From NCBI GenBank assembly GCA_026991065.1, contig JALXCG010000405.1, positions 1 through 6,093 of the forward strand: DNA of 6,093 bases. The letters run 5' to 3'. The DNA is from JALXCG01 sp026991065 [NCBI: Gemmatimonadota bacterium]. Its GTDB lineage: Bacteria; GCA-2686955. A program made the translations under genes and the position numbers. Shown piece after piece: positions 2-5,827 of this stretch. Under the pieces are notes generated by a model. That model was not told the DNA's origin and made no database searches. It was given only the letters and a program-made list of their open reading frames with translations. The first letter of the stretch is position 1. The number at the start of each line of letters is the position of its first letter.

Positions 2-1582
2 GAAGAGTTCGTCACCCTTGATGGCGACTCTCACAAGCTACCGGCGGGGGTTGTGATGATCGCCTCCGAGGAGCAGGCGGTGGCGATTGCCGGGGTGATG
101 GGGGGATTGGATTCCGCGGTCACCGAAGAGACCCGTGACATTCTGCTCGAGAGCGCCTATTTCGACCCGAGTGCGGTTCGTCGGGCTCGCACCCAGCTCC
201 GCATTCAGTCGGAGTCGGCATTTCGCTTCGAGCGCGGGGTGGATCCCGAGCGCGTGGCCGAAGCCGCGGCCCGAACCGCCTGGCTGATCGCGAGGCACAC
301 GGGTGGCAAGGTCGTTCCCGGAACTGTCGATGCCTATCCTCGGCCGGTCGAGCGCGCTTCCCTGACTCTGCGGCAATCGCGGATGGATCGGATACTGGGG
401 TATTCCGTGCCGATCGCGGATACCACGCGCATACTCGATCGCCTGGGGCTTGCGCCATGCCTGGACGATGATGATGCCGTGACTTGGCAAGTGCGCGTGC
501 CCTCCTATCGTCACGACCTCGAGCGAGAGATTGACTTGATCGAGGAGGTGGCGCGGATCCACGGGTATGACCAGATTCCCGAGACGACCGGCCTGTCCGG
601 GCCCGCTCCCGTGGGGTTGAGCAACGCCGATCGCGCGGTGCGCGACATCGAGGGGGCTTTGGTGGGCATCGGCTACGCCGGGACCGCGGGCAACACACTG
701 ATCTCTCCGGATGATCTCGAGGCTTTGCGGCTCAACGGCAAGGACCAACCTCGGCCGGTTCAGCTCAGCAATCCGACCGGGGCGGACCAATCTCTGCTGC
801 GCCCGTCGCTCTTCCCCTCTCTCTTCGCCAGCATTGAGCGCAATCGGGCTCGCGGCAGCAGCGATCTGCGCTTCTTCGAGATTGGCAAGGTTTTCGAGGA
901 TCGCGGTGGATCTCATGTGCGTGGCGCCGAGGAGCGCTTTGTGGAGCGCCACGTGCTGCAGATGGCTGCGATCGGCAAGGCTGCGCCCCTGCACTGGAGC
1001 GCACCCGCCCGGGAGTTGGACTTTTTCGACATGCGCGGGCACATTGAGCACCTGCTGCAGGTGTTGCGGGCACCGCAATGGAAGTTCGCGGCGCAGGTCG
1101 CGGCTCCCTTCCTGGCGCCTGAACCAGCTGCCACACTGGCCATTGGCGAGGATGTGATTGGTTGGATCGGGCTCCTGGACCGGGCCGCTGCCGCACGCTG
1201 GAATCTGGATGACTCGGCTGTGGTGGTTGCCCATCTGGAGGTGGATCTACTGGTGCCGCTGCTGCGAACGGAGCGCCGTTTTGTTGCTCCATCACGGTTC
1301 CCTGCTTCACGTCGCGATCTGTCGATGATCATCCCGGCCGGAGTGAGTTTCGACCAACTGGAGTCCACCATTCGGGAAGCCGCGCGGCGTCAATTGCGCA
1401 GCGTCGATGTGTTCGACGTGTATGAAGGCAAGCCGTTGGCCGCGGGCGAGCGCAGCATCGCCCTGCGTTTGACCTACCGTGCTCAAGATCGAACCTTGAC
1501 CGACGATGAGATCCGCAAGTCGCAGGAGCGCGTGATCATGGCTCTGGAAAAGGCGCACGGTGTGCGAATCCGGGGAGCCTGA
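2..1582 (+). CDS. pheT: Phenylalanine--tRNA ligase beta subunit, 5' end missing
   Basis: The beta chain of the cytoplasmic alpha2-beta2 enzyme that charges tRNA-Phe using ATP. The reading frame is open from base 2 and ends at TGA 1580-1582, so 526 residues are present. Family members are about 800 residues, so roughly the first 270 (EMAP/OB-fold tRNA-binding and B1 regions) lie upstream of the window. Visible landmarks, numbered within the fragment, are FVTLDG at 3-8 and AIAGVMGG at 29-36 (B3/B4 editing module), RFERGVDP at 76-83, the B5 motif PSYRHDLEREIDLIEE from 167, LSNPTG and RFFEIGKVF (B6/B7 catalytic-like core), and a C-terminal anticodon-binding FDX-ACB domain from about 430 (SRFPASRRDLS, then VFDVYEGKPL). 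No frameshift or missing block is seen. GTG at 53 and ATG at 56 are internal codons, not the start. pheS is expected just upstream, which is inference. Identification is very secure. Confidence 0.97.
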   Translation, partial: EEFVTLDGDSHKLPAGVVMIASEEQAVAIAGVMGGLDSAVTEETRDILLESAYFDPSAVRRARTQLRIQSESAFRFERGVDPERVAEAAARTAWLIARHTGGKVVPGTVDAYPRPVERASLTLRQSRMDRILGYSVPIADTTRILDRLGLAPCLDDDDAVTWQVRVPSYRHDLEREIDLIEEVARIHGYDQIPETTGLSGPAPVGLSNADRAVRDIEGALVGIGYAGTAGNTLISPDDLEALRLNGKDQPRPVQLSNPTGADQSLLRPSLFPSLFASIERNRARGSSDLRFFEIGKVFEDRGGSHVRGAEERFVERHVLQMAAIGKAAPLHWSAPARELDFFDMRGHIEHLLQVLRAPQWKFAAQVAAPFLAPEPAATLAIGEDVIGWIGLLDRAAAARWNLDDSAVVVAHLEVDLLVPLLRTERRFVAPSRFPASRRDLSMIIPAGVSFDQLESTIREAARRQLRSVDVFDVYEGKPLAAGERSIALRLTYRAQDRTLTDDEIRKSQERVIMALEKAHGVRIRGA

Positions 1583-1733: not shown

Positions 1734-2096
1734 ATGGCATCGCCCGAACTAACGATCGACGCACTGGAAGCTCGCTTGCGGCGGGCGATCCAGGCGATTG
1801 ACGCGCTCGTCGCCACCGCCGAGAGGCTGCGCGGAGAGCGGGATCAGTTGCGGCGGGAGTGCGATGAGGCGCATGCGGAGGTGGAGCAGATTCGGCGCGC
1901 GCAACGTCGTGTCGACAGCTTGCAGGAGGAGATTGAACGTCTGCGCCGCCACAATCAGGAGCTGCGCGCGTTGCGCACCGAGGCGCTACGGCATGGTCGC
2001 CAGATCGCCCGCAAGATTGGGATTCTGGATGAGGATCTTGGCTTGAGCATGATGGGCAAGGGTGGCACCGGCAATGTGAACGAGGCGAGCGCATGA
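1734..2096 (+). CDS. Small coiled-coil protein next to ZapA (ZapB-like by context)
   Basis: A 120-residue protein of no family I can name from sequence alone. Residues about 8-98 are rich in Leu, Glu, Arg and Gln with heptad-like spacing (LRRAIQAIDALV, VDSLQEEIERLRRHNQEL), so most of it should be one long cytoplasmic coiled coil. A short tail (IGILDEDLGLSMM, then a Gly-rich end) follows. There is no signal peptide or membrane segment. ATG 1734 is chosen because AGGAGA (1721-1726) sits 7 bases upstream; an in-frame GTG at 1620 would add 38 residues of different composition and lies in the hairpin. The stop overlaps the zapA start as ATGA, so the two are probably translated together. By size, fold and position it may be a ZapB-type partner that links ZapA to the division ring. 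That role is inferred from context, not shown by a motif. Confidence 0.85.
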   Translation: MASPELTIDALEARLRRAIQAIDALVATAERLRGERDQLRRECDEAHAEVEQIRRAQRRVDSLQEEIERLRRHNQELRALRTEALRHGRQIARKIGILDEDLGLSMMGKGGTGNVNEASA

Positions 2097-2401
2097 AAGG
2101 GCAGTCGATCCGTCTGCGGGTGTTTGGCCGGGAGTTCCCGGTGCGGGTGCATGGCGATGCCGATCATGCGCGGCGCGTGGCGGAACGCGTGGACGCCACC
2201 ATGAACGCGATCGCCCGCATGAGTAAGCGCTCCGGCGCCCAGGAGATCGCCATTCTGACCGCCCTCAACCTGGCCGATCTGATCGAGCGTGAGGCGAGCG
2301 CACCGGAGCTGGACCTCTCCCCGTTGGAGAGTGTCAATGAGGAGTTGGAGAGTGCGGTTCAGCGTGCGGAAGAGTTTCTAGCGGGGTGGAATGACGAGTA
2401 G
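2093..2401 (+). CDS. zapA: Cell division protein ZapA
   Basis: ZapA binds FtsZ in the cytoplasm and cross-links its filaments at the division site. The 102-residue length is normal for the family. The N-terminal part shows the expected beta-strand pattern with IRLRVFGREFPVRV, followed by the helix ARRVAERVDATMNAI and the typical IAILTALNLADLIERE segment. The C-terminal half continues as an amphipathic, Glu-rich helix suited to the dimer/tetramer coiled coil. ATG 2093 is preceded by GAGG (2082-2085) and overlaps the TGA of the coiled-coil gene by four bases, which favours translational coupling. The TAG stop at 2399-2401 is followed by 63 bases and then rny. I saw nothing unusual in the protein. 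Family assignment rests on length, pattern and the pheT-zapA-rny neighbourhood. Confidence 0.9.
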   Translation: MKGQSIRLRVFGREFPVRVHGDADHARRVAERVDATMNAIARMSKRSGAQEIAILTALNLADLIEREASAPELDLSPLESVNEELESAVQRAEEFLAGWNDE

Positions 2402-2464: not shown

Positions 2465-4045
2465 ATGGTCCTTCCTGGGTATGGCGTGCTAACCACGATT
2501 TTCATTAGCGGGTTTACGGGAATCCTCGGCACTTGGCTGGTGCGCCGGTATCTCTATGAGGCCCGGCTCGGCACTGCACGCGAACGTGCCGCGGAGATCC
2601 TACGCAACGCCCAGGCGGAAGCGGATCGCTGTGCCCGTTTGGCGCGTGAAGAGGCTCTCCTGGCGGTGCGCAAGCAGGCTCTGATTCAGCAAGAGGAGGC
2701 CGAGGCGGCGATCGAGACTCAACGCCGCGCTCTGCAGCGGGAATGGGAGCGGCGGGAGGCGCGCGAAGTTGATCTTCGCGCCCGGCTCGATGTTCTGGAA
2801 CGGAAGACCGCCCATATCAATCGCCGGGCGGATGAACTCATTGCCCGCTCGAAAGAGCTGGATGAGCGCGAAGCCCGCATCGAGGCATTGAAAGAGGAGA
2901 GGATCCGCCGACTGGAAACGGTCAGCGGCATGGAGCGTGACGAGGCCTCCGCCGAACTCCGCTCCAGCATCATGAAGAGCGCGCGTGCGAGTGCTTCCCG
3001 CGAGGCGAATCGTCTGATCCAGGCCGCGCAGGCCGATGCCGGACGCGAAGCCCGGCGCATTCTGGCCGCCGCGATTCAACGCAATGCCGTGGCGGTTGTC
3101 AATGAATCCACGGTGAGCACGATCGAGCTGGCCAGTGACGACATGAAAGGCCGCATCATCGGCCGTGAAGGCCGCAACATCCGCGCGTTCGAGTCCGAGA
3201 CCGGCGTCGATGTGATCATCGATGACACGCCTCGTCGGGTTTTTCTCTCCTCCTTCAATCCGGAGATTCGCGAGGTCGCACGATTGGCGCTTGAGGAGTT
3301 GCTGGCCGATGGACGCATCCACCCGGCGCGCATTGAAGATGTGGTGGCTTCCGCTCGGTCGCAACTCGGCGTGCGAATGCGCGAGATCGGCGAGATGGCA
3401 GCTTTTGAGGCCGAGGTTTATGGGCTCGCCGATGAGTTGATTCTGCACCTGGGCCGCCTGAGCTTCTGCGTGATGGGTGGCCAAAACGCGTTGCAGCACT
3501 CGATCGAAGTGAGTCATCTGGCGGCGGCGATGGCCCAGATGATCGGCGCCGACGAGGTGCTTGCCCGCCGCGCCGGGCTTCTCCACGACCTCGGCTGGTC
3601 GCGCCCCGGGGATGTGACCGGCGATCCGCATCAGGCAACGCTGGATCTTCTTGCGCACTACGGTGAGACCGAGCGCGTGCAGGAGACCGTGGCCGGTATG
3701 CGCCAGAGCAAAACCACGTCGCCGGTGGAGTCGGTTCTCGCGGCTGCCGCCAACGAGGTGTCGAAGGCACGCCCGGGTGCGCGCAGGGACCAACTCCGCC
3801 GTCACGTGCGACGACTGGAGACCATGGAAGATGTCGCGCGCGGCATTCGCGGCGTCGAGCGGGTTCACGCGATCCAGGCAGGGCGGGAATTGCACGTGAT
3901 TGTCGATCCCAGCGTGGTTGATGATGCTCGGGTTTTTGAACTCTCGCAAGAGGTTGCACGAAAGATCCAGAAGGAGTTGAGGTATTCTGGATCGATTCGC
4001 GTTACGGTGATCCGCCAGTTTCGCAGCACTGCCATTGCGCAGTGA
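2465..4045 (+). CDS. rny: Ribonuclease Y with an atypical HD nuclease domain
   Basis: RNase Y is a membrane-anchored endonuclease that starts mRNA decay. The 526 residues are close to the usual ~520. In order: an N-terminal membrane helix (about 7-27, including TTIFISGFTGILG) followed by Arg; a long charged coiled coil (about 35-205); a KH RNA-binding domain (about 220-285) with DDMKGRIIGREGRNIRAFE, its GxxG being GREG; an HD domain (about 340-440); and the conserved tail AIQAGRE ... IRVTVIR. In the HD domain His345 (LQHSIEVSHL) and the His374-Asp375 dyad remain, but the usual His-His-Gly-Asp is Met412-Arg413-Gln-Ser, the final ligand Asp of AAD is Asn430, and the Lys of HD-x-G-K is Trp378. 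Activity may therefore be changed or lost. ATG 2465 is the first standard start after the in-frame zapA stop; its ribosome binding site is weak (GGTGG at 2457-2461). ymdB follows, a common pairing. Family identity is firm; catalytic competence is doubtful. Confidence 0.95.
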   Translation: MVLPGYGVLTTIFISGFTGILGTWLVRRYLYEARLGTARERAAEILRNAQAEADRCARLAREEALLAVRKQALIQQEEAEAAIETQRRALQREWERREAREVDLRARLDVLERKTAHINRRADELIARSKELDEREARIEALKEERIRRLETVSGMERDEASAELRSSIMKSARASASREANRLIQAAQADAGREARRILAAAIQRNAVAVVNESTVSTIELASDDMKGRIIGREGRNIRAFESETGVDVIIDDTPRRVFLSSFNPEIREVARLALEELLADGRIHPARIEDVVASARSQLGVRMREIGEMAAFEAEVYGLADELILHLGRLSFCVMGGQNALQHSIEVSHLAAAMAQMIGADEVLARRAGLLHDLGWSRPGDVTGDPHQATLDLLAHYGETERVQETVAGMRQSKTTSPVESVLAAAANEVSKARPGARRDQLRRHVRRLETMEDVARGIRGVERVHAIQAGRELHVIVDPSVVDDARVFELSQEVARKIQKELRYSGSIRVTVIRQFRSTAIAQ

Positions 4046-4097
4046 CGCCCGCCCGCCGCTCCGCCCACAAATTCCTTGCAACCGCACTGGTCGAAAC

Positions 4098-4108: not shown

Positions 4109-4921
4109 TTGTCCACCATCAACATACTCTTTGTCGGCGATATTGTTGGCAGTCCCGGACGACGAGCGTTGGCGGAACTCCTGCCGCGATTGCGCCAGCG
4201 TTATCACCCCCACGTGGTGATCGCCAATGCGGAGAACTCCGCGGCCGGCTTTGGGTTGACCTATCCGATCTTCACCGAATACCAGGAGTTGGGGGTCGAT
4301 GTTCTGACCAGTGGCAACCACATCTGGGATCGCAAGGAGATCCTGCGCTTCATCGATCAGGAGGAGCGCCTGCTGCGCCCGATCAACTACCCCGATCCCT
4401 GCCCGGGGCATGGTTCCACACGGATTCTTGCGGGCGGTATCGAGTTGGTGGTGGTCAATTTGATGGGGCGTGTTTTCATGCGGCCGATTGACTGCCCCTT
4501 CAAGGCGATTGACAAAGAGCTGGCGCAGCTTGGGAAGGATCCTCGGAAGCGCCTGGTATTCGTCGATTTTCATGCCGAAGCCTCATCTGAAAAAGTCGCC
4601 ATGGGGCGCTATCTGGATGGTCGAGTCGGCGCAGTGGTTGGCACCCATACCCACGTGCAGACCGCGGATGAACGGATTCTCGCGGGTGGAACGGCCTATC
4701 TGACCGATACCGGTATGACCGGCGCCTATGAGTCGGTGATCGGGATGGAAGCGGACGGCGCGATCGAGCGTTTTCTGACCGGTCGCAATGTGCGCCTGAA
4801 TCCGGCTCGTGGCGGGCTTCGGGTTTGTGCCGCGATGATCCGTCTTGATCCTGATACCGGACTGGCGGTCTCCATCGAGCGTGTGAATGAGAGCGTGGAG
4901 AATGTGCGACTCAGAGGGTGA
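4109..4921 (+). CDS. ymdB: TIGR00282/YmdB-family metallophosphodiesterase
   Basis: A cytoplasmic calcineurin-like phosphodiesterase. The Bacillus member YmdB has a dinuclear metal centre and hydrolyses 2',3'- and 3',5'-cyclic nucleotides, affecting biofilm and motility choices. The 270 residues match the usual 260-270. All expected metal-site motifs are present: GDIVGSPGR with Asp11, NAEN with Glu42 and Asn43, GNHIWD with Asn70 and His71, DFHAEASSEK with His155, and GTHTHVQTAD with His180 and His182. DTGMTGAYESVIG matches the conserved DxGMTGPYxSxxG segment, with Ala for the usual Pro. The start is TTG 4109, which gives STINILFVGD directly before the first metal ligand, as in relatives. It lies 63 bases after rny. 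Rny and YmdB genes are adjacent in many bacteria, which suggests linked roles in RNA or nucleotide turnover. The substrate in this organism is not shown by the sequence. Confidence 0.93.
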   Translation: MSTINILFVGDIVGSPGRRALAELLPRLRQRYHPHVVIANAENSAAGFGLTYPIFTEYQELGVDVLTSGNHIWDRKEILRFIDQEERLLRPINYPDPCPGHGSTRILAGGIELVVVNLMGRVFMRPIDCPFKAIDKELAQLGKDPRKRLVFVDFHAEASSEKVAMGRYLDGRVGAVVGTHTHVQTADERILAGGTAYLTDTGMTGAYESVIGMEADGAIERFLTGRNVRLNPARGGLRVCAAMIRLDPDTGLAVSIERVNESVENVRLRG

Positions 4922-4954: not shown

Positions 4955-5827
4955 ATGAGTGCACGAATTATAGATGGTAAGGCGATCGCGGCCCTGGTTC
5001 GAAGCGAATTGGGGGCCCGCGTCGACAGCCTGCGATCGCGCGGTGTCGTTCCCACTCTGGCGGTTGTTCTGGTGGGAGATGACCCGGCGTCCGCTGTATA
5101 TGTGCGCAACAAGGCGAAGGCGGCGCGATCCATCGGGATTGAAGACCGTACCCTGCGGCTGCCCGCGGATACCTCAAGGCAGAAACTCATCGAGGTTGTC
5201 GACAGGCTCAATCGGGATGTCGATGTGCACGGGATTCTGGTGCAACTGCCGCTGCCCGCGGGGCTGGATGCCGAGGCGATCATCGCCCGCATCGACCCGG
5301 CGAAGGATGTCGACGCCTTTCATCCGGAAAATGTCGGCCGGATCATGCTCGGCAGACCGCGATTTTTGCCCTGCACCCCCGCCGCTGTGCGCGAGATCCT
5401 GCGTCGAGAAAAGATCGCCACGGCAGGTCGCCATGTGGTGATTGTGGGGCGAAGTGATATTGTAGGTAGGCCTTTGGCGAACATTTTGCTTTGGCGGGGC
5501 GCCAGCGGTGATGCGACTGTGACGGTTTGCCATTCTCGAACCCCTCATCTGGAACGTTTTACCCGTCAGGCGGAGATCCTGGTGGCTGCTGTCGGCGTGC
5601 CGGAACTGATTCGTGGGGACATGATTCAGGAAGGCGCCGTCGTGGTTGACGTGGGTGTCAACCGGGTGGCCGATGCAACCCGCCGCCGCGGTTATCGTTT
5701 GACCGGCGACGTTCTCTTTGATGAAGCGGTGGAGGTTGCCTCCGCCATAACTCCGGTGCCCGGCGGGGTCGGGCCGATGACCATTGCGATGCTCCTTCAA
5801 AATACAGTGACATCAGCAGAAAATTGA
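4955..5827 (+). CDS. folD: Bifunctional methylenetetrahydrofolate dehydrogenase/cyclohydrolase
   Basis: FolD interconverts 5,10-methylene-, 5,10-methenyl- and 10-formyl-tetrahydrofolate in the cytoplasm using NADP, supplying one-carbon units for purines and formyl-Met-tRNA. The 290 residues are the normal length. The active-site set is intact: YVRNK with Tyr49 and the catalytic Lys53, GILVQLPLP with Gln97, and KDVDAFHPENVG with Asp120. The Rossmann nucleotide-binding part carries GRSDIVGRP (165-173) and CHSRT (192-196), and the C-terminal signature PVPGGVGPMT ends the protein fold. ATG 4955 has GGAGAG (4942-4947) seven bases upstream. It follows ymdB by 33 bases and precedes the prenyl synthase by six, so it is probably co-transcribed. 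The xseA and xseB genes that often sit between folD and the prenyl synthase are absent here. Identification is very secure. Confidence 0.97.
   Translation: MSARIIDGKAIAALVRSELGARVDSLRSRGVVPTLAVVLVGDDPASAVYVRNKAKAARSIGIEDRTLRLPADTSRQKLIEVVDRLNRDVDVHGILVQLPLPAGLDAEAIIARIDPAKDVDAFHPENVGRIMLGRPRFLPCTPAAVREILRREKIATAGRHVVIVGRSDIVGRPLANILLWRGASGDATVTVCHSRTPHLERFTRQAEILVAAVGVPELIRGDMIQEGAVVVDVGVNRVADATRRRGYRLTGDVLFDEAVEVASAITPVPGGVGPMTIAMLLQNTVTSAEN

Follow-up and report, generated by a model that had tools for sequence, protein, structure and literature searches.

The rny gene of the window (the whole stretch of DNA analysed, 6,093 nucleotides) encodes a member of the RNase Y family by descent, whose HD domain has an incomplete set of the ligands of active RNase Y. 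We suggest that this protein (Y1) is probably an RNA-binding scaffold subunit of a mixed RNase Y oligomer, in which the cutting would be done by a second RNase Y (Y2) encoded on contig C640 of the same genome; the loss of catalysis and the oligomer are both inferred. The wider proposal, that RNase Y was repeatedly split into an obligate two-subunit enzyme, made of an RNA-binding pseudonuclease in the ancestral operon and a KH-less nuclease encoded elsewhere, stands in our judgement at about even chances, and the split form looks like the standard form of the enzyme in at least one phylum.

According to the proposed mechanism, two copies would have been present before they drifted apart, the KH domain changing in Y2 and the HD domain in Y1, the copy at the ancestral locus; the commonest Y1 change is the replacement of Asp430 (mostly by Asn). 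Y1 would be a pseudonuclease paralogue keeping the anchor, the coiled coil, the KH domain and the HD fold, with an HD site short of ligands for the usual metal centre. The two proteins would hetero-oligomerise via the coiled coil, and Y1 would bind RNA and deliver it to Y2. Dead copies and partners alike retain the N-terminal coil region, and the mixed oligomer is the simplest reading. According to excerpts of the respective reports, the coiled coil contributes about 72% of the buried surface in a predicted dimer of full-length B. subtilis RNase Y (PMC9775385), and the RNase Y KH domain is RNA-binding, while the HD domain is metal-chelating and needed for activity (PMC3997798).

HD site and conservation of the window RNase Y

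The features of the window are collected in Table 1. The rny frame was uninterrupted in translation (2465-4042), and a polyprenyl-synthase-like gene (named by reading) begins after folD at the window's end. A coiled-coil ORF (1620-2096) between pheT and zapA gave a sub-threshold Pfam match to ZapB. The ymdB ORF was listed from the TTG at 4076, and the TTG at 4109, with an AGGAG-like site on its 5' side, is by eye the likelier start. A search of the window against Rfam gave no match with E of 1 or less.

Table 1. Features of the window and residues of the RNase Y paralogue
Feature	Coordinates	Strand	Basis and remarks
pheT, 3' part	2..1582	+	named by reading; also adjoins other rny loci
zapA, upstream of rny	2093..2401	+	Pfam ZapA 5.1e-13
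rny, RNase Y paralogue with inactive-looking HD domain, 526 aa	2465..4045	+	translation, Pfam, TIGR03319
N-terminal hydrophobic stretch, probable membrane anchor	2477..2548	+	by eye; RNase_Y_N (Pfam) spans residues 11-208
long helical coiled coil (dimerisation region of the family)	2549..3088	+	AlphaFold2 helices 5-153 and 158-216; role of the coil from B. subtilis RNase Y (PMC9775385, excerpts)
KH domain, GRIIGREGRN kept	3104..3289	+	Pfam KH_1 residues 224-274; KH deviation 0.05
C335 V336 M337 G338 replacing RTSY	3467..3478	+	alignment
His345, first HD ligand, kept	3497..3499	+	alignment
His374-Asp375, HD dyad, kept	3584..3589	+	alignment
Trp378, Lys in the family (HDIGK)	3596..3598	+	alignment
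Pro388-His389, His388 ligand lost, His one residue downstream	3626..3631	+	alignment
Met412-Arg413, His-His in the family	3698..3703	+	alignment
Asn430, Asp (last ligand) in the family	3752..3754	+	alignment
ymdB-like phosphoesterase, downstream of rny	4109..4921	+	Pfam YmdB 1.4e-101
folD	4955..5827	+	named by reading; sole match in genome bin

Membership of the family was indicated by the score against TIGR03319 (486.7 bits, over the cut-off of 454.35), by the Pfam matches to RNase_Y_N, KH_1 and HD, all found and in this order, and by the gene neighbourhood. The window protein was aligned with 111 further RNase Y ORFs and with its own duplicate, locus L001 (113 rows), and the RNase Ys from 101 single-copy genomes, that is, genomes in which one match was found, served as the reference for invariant columns. 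Six of the 33 invariant columns are changed in the window (335, 337, 378, 388, 413 and 430), all of them within or just before the HD domain and none in the KH domain, which exceeds chance. Differences were found at 20 of the 104 columns with at least 90% identity in the 101 single-copy proteins, the columns used for the deviation values below.

The ligand set H, HD, H, H, D of active RNase Y is incomplete in the window: H345, H374 and D375 are kept, and H388, H413 and D430 are lost. The family residues at these columns are nearly constant in the 113 rows (H345 in 113, H374 in 113, D375 in 112, K378 in 110, H388 in 109, H412 in 110, H413 in 109 and D430 in 108), and P388, M412, R413 and W378 were restricted to the window and its duplicate row. 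A six-ligand pattern of the same form is described for the dinuclear HD protein YqeK (PMC8177086, excerpted text), and would correspond in RNase Y to H345, H374-D375, H388, H413 and D430; H413 rather than H412 was taken as the ligand because 412 alone is replaced in two single-copy genomes. The most often changed ligand position was D430 (14 of the 16 dead copies compared).

The initial annotation had read QHSIEV (His345) and the HD dyad (374-375) as kept, MRQS (412-415) where HHGD is expected, AAN (Asn430) for AAD and HDLGW for HDIGK; translation and alignment agree with the first three readings and W378 was read in the translation. The histidine of GDPH (386-389), described there as one residue out of register, aligned without a gap one position downstream of the histidine of GSH. 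Alignment added the losses R335C, S337M and Y338G.

An enzyme with an altered metal centre or substrate, using for instance H345, H374 and D375 together with a new ligand such as H389, would fit the residues kept in the window, the many Y1 proteins in which D430 is the one difference among the six ligands and the plasticity of HD sites (PMC8177086, excerpted text); since HD sites tolerate unusual ligands, the Asn430-only copies may be active. Yet K378 and residues 335-338 change as well, different lineages lose different ligands, family f261 replaces four together, and an HD-GYP protein inactive toward c-di-GMP has the terminal Asp changed to Asn, although it is also without the GYP tyrosine (same source). 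We regard this reading as improbable overall, and the loss of several ligands in one copy makes a different metal arrangement less likely there.

At the conserved columns the window protein deviates by 0.05 in the KH domain, 0.31 in the HD domain and 0.28 in the C-terminal region (single-copy mean 0.035). The open frame and the KH domain were as well kept as the initial annotation had stated, but the C-terminal tail, which it had placed with them, has drifted, with no invariant column lost. The AlphaFold2 model (mean pLDDT 84.4, pTM 0.47) retained the HD helices, and fold comparison gave domain-level matches to YhaM (Z 11.9), an exosome-type KH protein (Z 11.7) and the MamM C-terminal domain (Z 10.8). 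The sequence search of solved structures returned two weak KH matches and none to the whole protein.

A second RNase Y in this and other genomes

The genome bin comprises 902 contigs and is 84% complete, the window being contig 405. The search for a second rny in the genome, proposed in the initial annotation, was positive: locus L002 on contig 640 (G000:C640) encodes an RNase Y 37% identical to the window protein, with an intact HD site (HDIGK, GAH, HHAD and AAD; HHDKHHHD). L002 also retains the KH GXXG motif (KH deviation 0.18), and judged from these sequences a full KH/HD split is not shown for the window's own pair. RNase E/G is present in the same genome, and RNase J (TIGR00649) was not found there at E 0.001. 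The sole rny match of the one other genome of the same family and phylum examined (G001) groups with L002 (SH-aLRT 100). The bin has a single folD match, which lies on the contig of the window; none was found in G001, and the window's locus may therefore simply be missing from the 84% complete assembly of G001.

Of 386 genomes searched, 325 gave at least one match and 21 at least two, with at most three candidates scored per genome, so that some second copies may be missed. The second match of G314 is a fragment, which leaves 20 genomes with two full-length RNase Ys. Scoring H345, H374, D375, H388, H413 and D430, we found ligand loss in exactly one copy in 13 of the 20, and in all 13 the other copy has all six ligands. 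Three two-copy genomes of one genus (G113, G250, G377) miss H412 only, and four (G075, G216, G197, G092) show no ligand loss. Among the 101 single-copy genomes, a non-random set (41 from the comparison panel and 60 hand-picked from the best-scoring rows, with the partner-type L119 of G001 included), a scored ligand was lost in one (G258, D375 to Ala), and two more were without H412 alone. Fisher's test of 13/20 against 1/101 gave p about 1e-11, the genomes being related to each other. The ligands lost differ between lineages of the two-copy survey, and the same pairing was found in single-contig genomes (G345, G268, G438). Parsimony on a weakly resolved tree gave at least eight changes of the HD state and one of the KH state, counts that are rough because the tree was built quickly and has long-branch partners and many unresolved forks.

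Several single loci are recorded here. L258 (G258:C240:1527-3071) reads HA at the HD dyad, with the other ligands intact, and is the sole match in its genome, where a second copy may be missed. L122 (G005:C57) is a single match with an open frame of 392 aa starting at query residue 169 and a KH deviation of 0.26. The genome G092 (L167, L134, L151) has a KH-lost copy beside a full-ligand copy, the latter on two contigs with the same HD region, and is possibly an early stage of the split. Among the five genomes of the phylum of G052 both copies were found in three; G425 has the partner type only, by score, and G424 has none.

A decaying pseudogene, or an error of sequencing, assembly or binning, could be argued from the fragmented MAG with its short window contig, from the absence of a close relative of the window's Y1 among the genomes searched, and from codon usage, which ties the window to the C640 gene (correlation 0.746) no better than to some foreign loci (0.872 with L079). 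This explanation is very unlikely in view of the open frame, the conserved KH domain, the single folD of the bin, the similar GC of the two contigs (0.628 and 0.616), the low dN/dS in relatives and the occurrence of the same phenomenon in many genomes, single-contig ones included; composition as a link between the two contigs is weak. Sequencing error, pseudogene and misbinning were rejected as main explanations on the open frame, the conserved KH domain and the recurrence elsewhere. The same three observations uphold the earlier claim that the change is selective for the nuclease site, and on the side of selection the claim is upheld by the low dN/dS among the dead copies of relatives.

Reciprocal erosion and its possible order

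We compared 16 pairs, hand-chosen with one or two per family and including f113 (H412 loss only). KH deviation was 6% in the dead copies and 36% in the partners (single-copy mean 2.4%), HD deviation was 23% and 10%, respectively (single-copy mean 3.0%), and the C-terminal region deviated about equally, by 19.5% and 19.0%. The dead copy has less KH and more HD deviation than its partner in all 16 pairs. The partners of f19, f212, f188 and f248 are without a recognisable GXXG, and the other partners compared, L002 included, keep it with a KH deviation of 0.15-0.36. Pfam detected HD without KH_1 in five of five KH-lost partners scanned (that of G092 included) and both KH_1 and HD in five of five dead copies; RNase_Y_N was matched in all ten, slightly below the cut-off in L164. 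Complementary KH loss in the partner was seen in the phylum of G346 as well as in f19 and f212; in the window's genome it is only mild.

Y1 might instead act on its own, with no Y2 partnership, as a non-catalytic protein that binds RNA or serves as a scaffold, for instance for a degradosome or for YmdB. Its conserved KH domain, the HD helices kept in the model, the ymdB gene adjoining several of the loci and the presence of glycyl-tRNA synthetase HD domains among the fold matches agree with this. The glycyl-tRNA synthetase HD domains bind tRNA without HD catalysis, a property for which we found no paper in the open-access literature. However, such a role explains neither the opposite erosion of the two copies, KH in the partners and HD in Y1, nor the rarity of ligand loss in single-copy genomes, and we consider it unlikely.

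The ancestral neighbourhood is pheT-zapA-rny-ymdB-folD, and most dead copies are found there: tblastn with the window's neighbours located at least one of pheT, zapA, ymdB, folD and the polyprenyl synthase near 12 of 13 dead-copy loci (the window excluded, L178 with H412 loss only included), the exception, L150, having flanks of about 1.5 kb on each side. None of these neighbours was found by tblastn at any of 17 partner loci, some of which have short flanks (L002, L163). Going by these loci, it is the copy at the ancestral position whose catalytic site has been lost.

Selection was estimated on close relatives, the window's own gene standing outside these comparisons, in several of which synonymous changes are near saturation. 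Nine dN/dS values were computed for dead copies (two saturated; of the seven finite ones six are 0.02-0.15 and one is 0.48) and eight for partners (two saturated; the six finite ones are 0.01-0.12, with one of 0.45). The dead-copy values resemble those of the partners, and in none of the nine dead-copy comparisons was any part of the protein more conserved than KH.

The pairing was then followed in the phylum of G346 (G217 included), from which 56 genomes, sampled from a larger group, were chosen after the initial survey. All 56 have a match and 49 have two; with G433, G462 and G479 left out, 46 pairs were compared (44 new ones plus G346 and G217). In each of the 46, KGRIIGREGRN is intact in Y1 and residue 430 is Asn, whereas Y2 is without the KH motif (deviation 0.69-0.87) and keeps all six ligands. 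Further Y1 ligand losses were detected in G443 and G464, and none of the 47 Y1 sequences listed retains Tyr338, which is mostly replaced by Gly. HD deviation is greater in Y1 than in Y2 in only 38 of the 46 pairs. Seven genomes of 72-90% completeness have one match; G474 (72% complete) has an Asn430 copy with no partner found, and the single match of G466 is a KH-lost, HD-intact copy.

A graded series was found in the phylum of G345. The Calditrichaceae genome of L038 belongs to this phylum, the locus matching G392 in contig and coordinates. Forty genomes of the phylum were taken, and both HD domains were readable in 33, three of which (G345, G075, G216) are shared with the 20 two-copy genomes. 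Set aside were G392 (Y1 only), G398 (no match), G407 and G421 (Y2 only), and, for cut copies, G409, G417 and G420. Y1 is degenerate in 21 of the 33 readable pairs and has all six ligands in 12 (families f75, f263, f264). Asn430 was found in 15 (13 of f247, one of f262, one of f263), and four of the six ligands (D375, H388, H413, D430) are replaced together in six, all of f261. Partners have all six ligands in 32 of the 33. The exception is the bin G388, in which neither copy is canonical: the partner L241 (G388:C33:9400-11400) reads HYVGK for HDIGK (Asp375 to Tyr) and Y1 has Asn430. The partner predicted in the genome of L038 was not found in G392 (87% complete), which has an Asn430 copy alone; the 14 other genomes of its family have two matches in 13 cases and none in one.

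The KH deviation of the partner is already 0.15-0.21 where Y1 has all ligands (f75, f263, f264), and in G092 the KH motif of the partner is absent (0.79) beside a full-ligand copy. This KH drift beside an intact Y1 suggests that the KH decay of Y2 preceded the HD decay of Y1, an order that would be expected if Y2 already depended on Y1 for RNA binding.

Annotation, significance and known systems

The cut-off of TIGR03319 is passed by the ligand-poor L211 (590.8), as by the window protein, and by the HD-intact partners that keep KH, L002 (504.3) and L160 (580.5), whereas the HD-intact, KH-lost copies L166 (321.5), L165 (271.1), L114 (342.8) and L164 (360.8) fall below it. Since the scanned dead copies pass and the KH-lost intact copies fail, automatic annotation may give the name ribonuclease Y to the wrong copy.

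RNase Y is a main initiator of mRNA decay in many bacteria. If the split is true, an enzyme that the excerpted literature treats as a dimer of one protein would be divisible in several lineages, and the pairs would provide natural separation-of-function variants for the question of how the KH domain passes RNA on to the HD site. With the graded series of the G345 phylum one can test in which order the steps towards a pseudoenzyme were taken. In the open-access PMC literature searched, represented mostly by titles and abstract openings, neither a dead nor a split RNase Y was described.

The window protein is like RNase Y (rny; TIGR03319) in the order of RNase_Y_N, KH and HD, in the ymdB neighbourhood and in a score over the equivalog cut-off, and unlike it in the replacement of Arg335, Ser337, Lys378, His388, His413 and Asp430 and in being one of two copies. 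The change of the terminal HD Asp to Asn is shared with Bd1817, an HD-GYP protein inactive toward c-di-GMP; Bd1817 belongs to another HD family, is without the GYP tyrosine and, in the excerpts of PMC8177086, is not presented as half of a pair.

Parallels to the window pair, described here from abstract openings, are eukaryotic: in the trypanosome AdoMetDC with its prozyme (PMC5201418), in deoxyhypusine synthase (PMC3663545) and in the RNase III proteins that occur in pairs in RNA editing complexes (PMC9508840), a dead paralogue is retained beside an active one, and activation by a dead paralogue is known in eukaryotic enzymes. Dead-paralogue pairs as such are already known, and what is new, as far as these partial sources extend, is the pairing of dead and active RNase Y, reciprocal and in bacteria: in contrast to the eukaryotic pairs, the RNase Y pairs are bacterial, recurrent and reciprocal, with the partners eroding in their RNA-binding domain.
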